Below are positions 24,867-29,555 of a stretch of DNA of 41,053 nt, one piece after another. Positions within the stretch are counted from its first letter, which is position 1, and each line of letters opens with the position of its first letter. Source of the DNA: Armatimonadetes bacterium 55-13 (GTDB lineage Bacteria > Armatimonadota > Fimbriimonadia > Fimbriimonadales > Fimbriimonadaceae); the NCBI GenBank assembly GCA_001898035.1, contig MKRX01000018.1, forward strand, positions 57,213-98,265. The letters are read 5' to 3'. The translations under genes and the position numbers were made by a program. The notes beneath the pieces are model-generated. The model ran no database searches, was not told the origin of the DNA, and saw nothing but the letters and a program-made list of their open reading frames with translations.

Positions 24867-25466
24867 ATGGAGTCAACGGGAGACATGGGAACGCAAATTA
24901 CAGGAAAAAAGGTGGCGTTTCTTGCCACAAATGGATTCGAAGAATCGGAGTTGATGGAGCCTAAGAAACTCTTGGAAGAAGCGGGAGCGGAGACGACCGT
25001 CATCTCTCAGAAAGATGGAGACATTCAAGGCTGGAAGGACAAGAATTGGGCGGGAAGCATTCATGTCGATCAGACATTAGATCAAGCCAAGCCAGAAGAG
25101 TTTGATGCTCTGGTGATCCCGGGCGGAACCATGAACCCGGATGCGTTGCGCATGGACCCCAAAGCGGTGAAGTTTGTCCGGGAGTTTATGAGCTCGGGCA
25201 AAGTGGTGGGGGCGATCTGCCATGGACCGTGGCTCTTGGCGGAAGCGGACACGATCCGTGGTAAGCGTCTCACCAGTTGGCCGTCTTTGAAAACAGATCT
25301 GACCAACGCGGGTGCGGAATGGACCGATCAGGCGGTGGTTACCGATCAAGGCATGGTCACCAGCCGAAAACCGGACGACATTCCGGCTTTTGCCAACAAG
25401 CTCATTGAAGAAATTGCCGAGGGACGGCATACGCGGCGCGAGATTGCCTCTGGCGTCCGCGTCTAA
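24867..25466 (+). CDS. DJ-1/PfpI family protein (general stress protein 18-like)
   Basis: A 199-residue type 1 glutamine-amidotransferase-fold protein. 'KKVAFLATNGFEESELMEP' region (about 14-32) has the conserved Glu of the family, and 'VVGAICHGPWLLAEAD' holds the nucleophile-elbow Cys118 followed by His. 'DALVIPGGTMNPDALR' is the usual strand-loop before it. Such proteins act as glyoxalase/deglycase-like or stress enzymes; a protease role is doubtful. Start is ATG 24867, or ATG 24885 where GGGAG is too close to be ideal. A strong terminator follows 4 bases after the stop, so it is monocistronic. Confidence 0.85.
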   Translation: MESTGDMGTQITGKKVAFLATNGFEESELMEPKKLLEEAGAETTVISQKDGDIQGWKDKNWAGSIHVDQTLDQAKPEEFDALVIPGGTMNPDALRMDPKAVKFVREFMSSGKVVGAICHGPWLLAEADTIRGKRLTSWPSLKTDLTNAGAEWTDQAVVTDQGMVTSRKPDDIPAFANKLIEEIAEGRHTRREIASGVRV

Positions 25467-25470
25467 ACGC

Positions 25471-25503
25471 AAGGGCCCCTGACACCGTGGTCAGGGGCCT
25501 TTA
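25471..25503 (+). terminator. Rho-independent terminator of the DJ-1/PfpI gene
   Basis: A 13-pair stem (25471-25483 with 25490-25502, one G-U pair) closes on a 6-base loop and ends in TTT. It starts just after the stop codon. It separates the gene from the tandem array that follows. Confidence 0.8.
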
Positions 25504-25510
25504 GGTTTGT

Positions 25511-26262
25511 GAGCGTGATGTAGACGACGGTTCTACCGTCGTGAGCGCTCTGGTTTTGACAGATCGCTCTGTTTCAGAACACGCTCACGTCAGAAGGACT
25601 GACGCCTACATTGCGCTCGGCGATTGATTGCTTGTTGGAAACACAGAGCTTTATGCAGGCGACGGTCCTACCGTCGTACGTGCTCTGGTTTTTGCAGGGC
25701 GATCTGTTTCAGAACACGCTCACGTCAGAAGGACTGACGCCTACATTGCGCTCGGTGATTGATGGCTTGTTGTAAACACAGAGCGTGATGTGGGCGACGG
25801 TCCGACCGTCGTGAGCGCTCTGGTTTTTTATAAGGCGCTCTGGTTCAGATCGCGCTCACGTCAGGGGGACTGACGCCTACATTGCGCTCGGAGATTGATG
25901 GCTTGTTGTAAACACAGAGCGTGATGTAGGCGACGGTCCTACCGTCGTACGCGCTCTGATTTTGACAGGGCGCTCTGGTTCAGATCGCGCTCGCGTCAGG
26001 GGGACTGACGCCTACATTGCGCTCGGTGATTGGTTGCTTTGTTGTTCAGAGCGTGATGTGGGCGACGGTCCTACCGTCGTGAGCGCTCTGGTTTTTTTAC
26101 AGGGCGCTCTGGTTCAGAACACGCTCACGTCAGGGGGACTGACGCCTACATTGCGCTCGGTGATTGGTTGCTTTGTTGGTTCAGAGGGCGGATTGGGTGA
26201 TGGGTCTTCCGTTGTAGGCGCTCTGGTTTTTTACAAGGCGCTCTGGTTCAGATCGCGCTCAC
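25511..26262. repeat. Tandem array of a ~135-bp palindromic unit, 5 full copies and one degenerate partial
   Basis: Units start at 25511, 25646, 25781, 25917, 26049 and 26184, so spacings are 135, 135, 136, 132 and 135 bases; the last copy is degenerate and stops near 26262. In each full unit a ~108-base element is followed by a 24-27 base linker. The element has outer arms GAGCGTGATGTAGGCG and CGCCTACATTGCGCTC (14 of 16 complementary), and inside them three hairpins: GACGGT-N3-ACCGTC, CGTGAGCG...CGCTCACG, and CGTCAG-N5-CTGACG. Between copies the loops vary (TTCTA, TCCTA, TCCGA; AAGGA, GGGGA) while the stems stay fixed. No open reading frame of its own. It fills most of the 948-base gap 25467-26414. 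It resembles REP/BIME or MITE-like cruciform elements, but no RAYT or transposase is nearby. Confidence 0.85.
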
Positions 26263-26365: not shown

Positions 26366-26398
26366 CAAAAATCGCCCCCGGTCCCGAGACCGAGGGCG
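26366..26398 (-). terminator. Rho-independent terminator of eno
   Basis: On the minus strand the stem CGCCCTCGGTC / GACCGGGGGCG (26373-26398, with a short TCGG-type loop) is followed by ATTTTTG. It lies 17 bases after the eno stop codon. Confidence 0.75.
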
Positions 26399-26414: not shown

Positions 26415-27725
<1,311 letters not shown>

Positions 27726-28652: not shown

Positions 28653-29555
28653 TTAGGACTTGCGATTTCGTCGCTTGCGGATGAGGGCGAGAGCGCCGAG
28701 ACCGAGTGCGGCCATAGAGGCGGGCTCGGGAACGGGCTGAGTCTCGAAGTTCCAGGTGTGGCTCATGCCGCCGGTGAAGCTGATGGAGATATTGTCCACC
28801 GCGCCATCGAAGCTGCCCCAACCAGATCCCACGCCGGAACTCACTCCGAAGATCGCCGTTTGAGCGCTCAGGGAGGGGTAGTTGCCATTGGGATTGGCCG
28901 AGTTGATCCAGTCCTGAATCGTCCGGTTATAGACTTCCTCGACGGAGCCATTGCTATTGCCGAAGTTGACCATCCAGACGTTGGCGCTCAGGCCAGCGCC
29001 ATTCCAGTTGAAGACGTCGTCCGAGATCCAAGCGTCGGTGGGGACGGCGGCGGTGTTCGGGTTGTAGGCGCGCTCGAAGACGAGGTAGCCCTGGTCCGTA
29101 GTTGTCGCGAAGTTGCCATCCGCATCGAAGTACACGCGGAGTGCCGGGTGCAGGTGGGCGGCGGCGCCGCTGCTGCTGTTTCGATACCAATCGTAGCTGA
29201 GTCCGCTTAGCGAACCGAGCGTGCCCATGGCGGCAAAACCCGAAGTGGGCGCGCCGGGAGTATTGAACTGGTAATACTCAACGTCGGCTTTGGAGTTGCC
29301 AGCGCCACTCGTTGAGAGGTGCGCGGAACCGTTGCCGGATCGAGCGTAGTCGGTGTTGATCCCGGCGACGCCATCGGTTCGAACGTTGGTGTAATACCAG
29401 CCGCTGGCTCCGACCGCCTGGGTGATCCCAGAACCGCCAGGGTTGGTGAAATTATCCCCAGTGGGATTGTTGCTATATACCGTTTGCGCCGAAGCTAAGG
29501 CACCAAACGCGACCACGGTACTTGCCGCGACGATGCGACGGAAGGTTGTAGACAT
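28653..29555 (-). CDS. Secreted PEP-CTERM sorting-domain protein
   Basis: A 300-residue protein with a signal peptide (residues 1-23, 'RRIVAASTVVAFGALASA' then Q) and a C-terminal PEP-CTERM tail: 'VPEPASMAALGLGALAL' followed by 'IRKRRNRKS'. The body is rich in Gly, Ser, Asn and aromatic residues and contains 'VDNISISFTGG', resembling beta-sandwich surface proteins. Such tails are cut by exosortase in bacteria that also make extracellular polysaccharide, which fits the first third of this window; no exosortase gene is present here. GGAGAG lies before the ATG (29553-29555). The specific function is unknown. Confidence 0.85.
   Translation of the reverse strand: MSTTFRRIVAASTVVAFGALASAQTVYSNNPTGDNFTNPGGSGITQAVGASGWYYTNVRTDGVAGINTDYARSGNGSAHLSTSGAGNSKADVEYYQFNTPGAPTSGFAAMGTLGSLSGLSYDWYRNSSSGAAAHLHPALRVYFDADGNFATTTDQGYLVFERAYNPNTAAVPTDAWISDDVFNWNGAGLSANVWMVNFGNSNGSVEEVYNRTIQDWINSANPNGNYPSLSAQTAIFGVSSGVGSGWGSFDGAVDNISISFTGGMSHTWNFETQPVPEPASMAALGLGALALIRKRRNRKS

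Follow-up and report, generated by a model that had tools for sequence, protein, structure and literature searches.

A tandem array of REP doublets in Armatimonadetes bacterium 55-13, very probably moved by a RAYT gene elsewhere in the genome

In Escherichia coli, BIME-2 elements are built from REPs that alternate in inverted orientation, repeat in tandem and occupy intergenic DNA, and host roles of the gyrase, IHF or terminator kind have been proposed for some enterobacterial BIMEs. The array described here shares the alternation of inverted REPs with BIME-2 but differs from it in REP sequence.

Tandem clusters of REPINs or BIMEs, including clusters beside RAYT genes, are described in the sections of PMC3116915 and PMC8266576 drawn on here, and in Pseudomonas fluorescens SBW25 one such REPIN cluster adjoins each RAYT gene (PMC3116915). 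The GTAG REP super-family, as portrayed in the sections of PMC3733652 drawn on, comprises short hairpins with an unpaired GTAG end. Its HH-type heterodimers carry the GTAG outside and its spacers measure 20–100 bp, some of them with small hairpins, while the phyla named in those sections are Proteobacteria, Cyanobacteria, Chloroflexi and PVC, Armatimonadota not being among them. What marks out a REPtron is that enzyme and repeat match each other.

The window, that is the whole stretch of 41,053 nucleotides that was analysed, contains a tandem array at 25511–26262 on the plus strand, delimited by TRF (period 135, 5.6 copies, 86% matches, score 1001), the unit profile and the genome census. Full units start at 25511, 25646, 25781, 25917 and 26049, followed by a partial, degenerate sixth unit at 26184–26262 (plus strand), in which TRF and the sequence reveal no recognisable REP B. 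The spacings given in the earlier note (135, 135, 136, 132 and 135) hold when the units are cut out, and TRF agrees that the array is real. In all likelihood this array is a tandem cluster of GTAG-type REP doublets (REPINs/BIMEs) that is non-autonomous and served by a RAYT elsewhere in the genome, a reading under which the puzzle gives way to an ordinary mobile-repeat system. Upstream lies a DJ-1/PfpI family gene (24867–25466, plus strand; PF01965, 193 bits), and downstream a convergent enolase gene (26415–27713, minus strand; PF00113, PF03952). A GC-rich, terminator-like hairpin read from the sequence separates the PfpI gene from the array (25474–25499), and a second follows the enolase gene beyond the array (26373–26398, minus strand). 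Further along, 28653–29555 encodes a protein with a PEP-CTERM motif at its C-terminus.

Scanning the window with Rfam returned no family at threshold, and a tRNA/tmRNA search of it found none. CRISPR was rejected, as spacer variation of the right kind is absent. Integron sites of the attC kind came into consideration on account of the long imperfect palindromes, but the units have no genes between them and run head to tail with GTAG feet, so that this reading was dropped.

Comparison of units across arrays revealed two nearly invariant elements of 22 nt each, composed of a GTAG foot, one base designated S and a six-pair stem. The first, REP A, reads GTAG-S-CGACGGTCCTACCGTCG, and the second, REP B, reads GTAG-S-CGTCAGTCCCCCTGACG and is inverted at the other end of the unit; the two are distinguished by their loop and by two base pairs, both compensated. 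In the window, the REP A copies lie on the plus strand at 25520–25541 (unit 1, foot GTAG), 25655–25676 (unit 2, foot GCAG), 25790–25811 (unit 3, foot GTGG), 25926–25947 (unit 4, an exact match to GTAGGCGACGGTCCTACCGTCG, converted from C18:83138-83159) and 26058–26079 (unit 5, foot GTGG, converted from C18:83270-83291). Their inverted REP B partners, on the minus strand and likewise converted from contig coordinates, occupy 25588–25609 (unit 1, C18:82800, minus), 25723–25744 (unit 2, C18:82935), 25859–25880 (unit 3, C18:83071), 25994–26015 (unit 4, C18:83206) and 26128–26149 (unit 5, C18:83340). From GTAG to CTAC the foot-to-foot length is 88–91 bp in 82 of 90 A/B pairings, and neighbouring REP A copies are spaced 133–135 bp apart in 46 of 64 pairs. 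The GTAG feet of an A/B unit point outwards, the spacer is about 45 bp and the whole period of about 135 bp repeats head to tail. Since every full unit holds this nearly invariant inverted pair, each is a REP heterodimer with its feet outside (a REPIN/BIME doublet) and not a lone cruciform.

These features agree with what defines the known elements. REP A is a palindrome within the 20–40 bp range of GTAG REPs, preceded by unpaired GTAG and present in many extragenic copies, and the units combine two inverse REPs across a near-constant spacer with tandem clustering that includes the flanks, as in REPINs and BIMEs. What the array has in common with the GTAG REP super-family, which counts 24 families (PMC3733652), is by description a short hairpin ending in unpaired GTAG, a spacer in the 20–100 bp range and, as in the HH-type heterodimers, GTAG on the outside. 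With the REPIN clusters of SBW25, as set out in the sections used of PMC3116915, the array shares inverted-REP doublets repeated in tandem with their flanks, but it belongs to another phylum and has another REP sequence, and arrays in this genome reach up to 9 units and, on the contig that carries the RAYT gene, crowd towards that gene. The earlier note was right to consider the array BIME-like, the units being dispersed tandem REP doublets, but judged it far longer than ordinary REP units by setting a doublet plus spacer against a single REP.

Conservation extends beyond the GTAG feet into GAGCG.AAT arms, which count against the doublet reading in that a simple two-REP element could do without them; they would be accounted for if the entire period was amplified in tandem. 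A chimeric REP is found at L035:1659-1680, its stem broken because the 5' arm comes from A and the 3' arm from B.

A different account of the unit is that its whole 135 bp has a function as a four-arm cruciform, or as a cloverleaf in RNA, with the fold under selection, as the earlier note had suggested. When four of the five full units were folded singly as ssDNA, the z-scores ran from −4.9 to −6.4 on either strand and no shuffled sequence did equally well, so that the folding potential exceeds chance. Alignment shows that the stems GACGGT/ACCGTC and CGTCAG/CTGACG are indeed unchanged in all five full units while the loops vary. The outer arms, put at 14 of 16 complementary positions, reach that figure in some units only, the range counted by eye being 12–14 of 16, and two of the three smaller hairpins described are the REP hairpins, the central one being poorly kept. 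Covariation was judged by pair counts on alignments, the main one taking no more than two units from any array, 53 in all from 31 arrays, out of 85 that had both REPs. In it the outer stem is still 77.6% paired, but columns 15/98 are unpaired in 42 of the 53 units, and the four-helix model yields 15 compensated double-change cells against 26.6 in shuffles. An alternative central stem found no better compensatory support in this alignment, and RNAalifold retained the two REP hairpins only, with a covariation term of 0.04. Neither the outer arms nor the central hairpin thus show the compensation expected of a conserved cruciform, and this account is largely refuted and now very improbable.

The REP hairpins themselves behave differently from the whole unit, being paired at 96.2% and 98.7% across the 53 units. 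The REPs of this genome, compared over 52 of 58 distinct sequences (five REP A with a replaced or badly broken foot and one listed as both A and B being excluded), are 94.6% paired and differ from A to B at the two compensated pairs, as expected of a hairpin kept by selection for pairing, although this compensation goes back to two changes that many copies have inherited, in effect two events, and the shuffles ignore kinship. The REPs of a same-family genome, G078, give a covariation score of 0.170 against 0.051 in shuffles, with none of 500 as high, over 24 distinct sequences and not every listed copy. Only the REP hairpins have kept their pairing, as supported by the A and B comparison and, independently, by the REPs of G078. 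Dispersed copies with covarying stems and a RAYT flanked by the same repeats, which had been proposed as support for a mobile or functional cruciform family, are accordingly present for the REP hairpins and lacking for the unit as a whole.

Copies were located by BLAST, profile and pattern searches. REP A occurs at 109 places in the 4.5-Mb genome with up to 3 mismatches, while the reversed control pattern occurs at none. The census counted 169 units in 49 arrays on 13 contigs, with 1–9 units per array and a single unit in 14 of the 49; it is a lower bound, covering 618 kb of 4,525 kb in regions chosen for bearing hits. Within those 618 kb alone, REP B has 131 copies. Downstream of the RAYT gene, the array contains a run of N (L033:12725-12781), and 12 contig ends fall inside arrays, so that true copy numbers are higher. 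It had been allowed that a unit occurring only here would be a local tandem duplication without wider meaning. The units of the window array are more alike than units from different arrays, as such a duplication would have them, but the dispersal of REP A to 109 places and of arrays to 13 contigs refutes it, leaving this the least credible of the explanations weighed.

Beyond this genome the repeat is scarce. A two-unit BLAST query matched none of 60 relatives, and the REP A pattern, searched in 100 relatives, found just 1–2 matches per genome, at 2–3 mismatches, in 15 genomes. Movement is not observed, and no empty site was found in a close relative (0/60 BLAST matches, the two same-genus genomes being just 74–75% complete). 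The family appears species-specific as far as the genomes examined show, the two same-genus genomes among them being 74–75% complete. A literature search, including the sections used of PMC12306157, found no REP report for Fimbriimonadaceae; the REP family with its RAYT is new, in kin of Fimbriimonadaceae (Armatimonadota), while the kind of element is already well known.

The earlier note saw no RAYT nearby, which is true inside the window, but the genome does carry one, and the note's suggestion of a non-autonomous element spread by an unlinked enzyme is borne out by a RAYT on another contig that is flanked by the same repeats. Profile search of the genome gave seven Y1_Tnp matches. One of these, C25:51939-52484 (181 aa), scores 87.1 bits with the NCBIfam REP_Tyr_transpos model, above its cut-off of 80, and matches E. 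coli TnpA-REP 4er8 (E = 1.7e-7) with the WQ..H..R stretch aligned. Its protein (P0001) contains DHVH, WQ...DHVIR and Y126, and so has both the HUH motif and a single catalytic Tyr; the roles of the HUH and Tyr residues and of the GTAG-reading WQ..(E/D)H..R residues are taken from the sections used of PMC6006769. An array ends 140 bp upstream of the gene and another, in the opposite orientation, starts 4 bp downstream, giving the arrangement of a REPtron with REPs of its own family on both sides. These flanking arrays are weaker evidence than the genome average suggests, because the gene sits in the array-richest contig. The other six Y1_Tnp matches have no REP A or REP B within 1.5 kb (up to 5 substitutions).

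The gene resembles the REPtrons of TnpA-REP subclass 2.7, as characterised in the sections used of PMC6006769, in its motifs DHVH, WQ and Y-x-L-N-N-P, an assignment made by motif only, and in the GTAG REPs on both sides. It departs from that subclass in having T, not I, as the second residue of the Y motif, and in its length of 181 aa against a median of 213 (PMC6006769).

The units are very probably moved by this matching RAYT. By analogy with other TnpA-REP proteins, the enzyme would act on single-stranded DNA, reading the GTAG foot together with its hairpin and cleaving alongside, the basis for the analogy being the action on foot and hairpin described in the sections used of PMC8266576 and PMC6006769. 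The doublet might then be moved or copied by the RAYT into new intergenic sites, and arrays could grow by recombination or replication slippage between units. The array in the window would represent one non-autonomous insertion between two convergent genes. The imperfect 16-bp outer inverted repeats might alternatively be read as the long terminal inverted repeats of a classical MITE, dependent on a DDE-type transposon. Against this speak the head-to-tail arrangement, the position of the GTAG feet immediately ahead of the hairpins, and the fact that the enzyme bracketed by these repeats is of the Y1 (HUH) type; a MITE is accordingly a highly unlikely identity for the units.

A second intact RAYT, 54% identical to the first, is encoded on contig C26 (L088:8969-9472) and is one of the other six Y1_Tnp matches. 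Beside it lie two copies of a different REP, GTAGGCGCGGTTCCGTCCGCG, which has four copies genome-wide; two of the four, on C20 and C6, adjoin a REP A or REP A-like copy. In G078, a RAYT 40% identical is flanked by GTAGCCGCCGGTTCCGTGCCGGCG, which occurs there in 100 copies (up to 3 mismatches) against 0 for the control. At 42 of 80 loci in the wider set of RAYT homologues (80 kept of 346, from named genomes), two or more GTAG/GTGG hairpins that resemble one another lie no further than 600 bp away, against 0 of 800 shuffled flanks, and several homologues, for example L138, L153 and L162, have evenly spaced hairpin series nearby. Genomes G012 and G063, both of the same family, contain eight and eleven RAYT-like matches, respectively, several of them at contig ends and mostly without clear GTAG hairpins under the criteria used. 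The paralogue pair, with more than 100 against 4 REP copies, together with a relative holding 100 copies of its own REP, offers a natural comparison of REP success.

Another possibility is that the array is maintained because it serves the host, whether through binding of the gyrase or IHF type, as a terminator or as an mRNA stabiliser, with RAYT mobility secondary. All 49 arrays are extragenic, none overlapping a called gene (by the codon-score gene caller of this study), and among the 36 with genes on both sides 16 lie between codirectional, 14 between convergent and 6 between divergent genes. For comparison, the 477 called gene pairs comprise 301 codirectional, 91 convergent and 85 divergent ones, so that the convergent setting accounts for 39% of arrays against 19% of pairs, a point in favour of such a role. 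A host role would less readily accommodate the 6 arrays between divergent genes, a copy number that varies widely by site (1–9 units) and the absence of the repeat from relatives. The window array itself lies between two terminator-like hairpins already serving both genes, and since the PfpI and enolase genes each have such a hairpin of their own, no sign of a host function was found at the site. A primary host role is therefore rather unlikely, if less so than a cruciform or a MITE.

Within the REP doublets the base S is distributed by strand. After the GTAG foot it is G where the REP sense strand is the G-rich strand and C where it is the other, in 202 of 226 REPs with C or G at this position. 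By array, 39 of 43 follow the rule, with 3 against and 1 tie, independently of the direction of the A/B unit; the test took in REPs whose foot was near-intact, in arrays where local skew reached 0.03 or more, and 6 of the 49 arrays lacked enough skew or a readable S. That the G-rich strand is the leading one is assumed on the basis of GC skew. The skew at S exceeds that of four-fold sites (64% G); in non-array intergenic DNA the figure is 54%. Exceptions include the window array, all five of whose REP B copies carry the "wrong" base, and S is mixed in the arrays at C13:34749, C19, C11:126288 and C7. Among the listed copies of the G078 REP, S is almost invariably C, so that the strand mark may be limited to this species.

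The pattern could mean that the RAYT acts on one exposed strand at the fork, S separating active from silenced REP ends, with spreading partly local, but this is a speculative and rather improbable reading. The same lean is seen in the unit's other variable columns, with S the most polarised; their keto excess is 0.394, and none of 2000 permutations at array level went above 0.309. Because these columns share the lean, ordinary strand-biased mutation is the sober explanation and is preferred. If S were linked to the RAYT, it would provide a readable trace of the strand used by the enzyme; the array itself is of modest interest, which the strand pattern raises somewhat.

Arrays are also crowded near the RAYT gene. 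Contig C25 makes up 1.8% of the genome, yet holds 14 of the 49 arrays found. Of its 46 intergenic gaps 12 are occupied, at a mean distance to the RAYT gene of 11.5 kb against 26.3 kb for unoccupied gaps (p = 0.001), and the effect persists without the two flanking gaps (p = 0.005). Local spread is one reading of this crowding and differential loss is another. Across C25:25961-81938 an array appears in every few intergenic gaps, more densely towards the RAYT gene.
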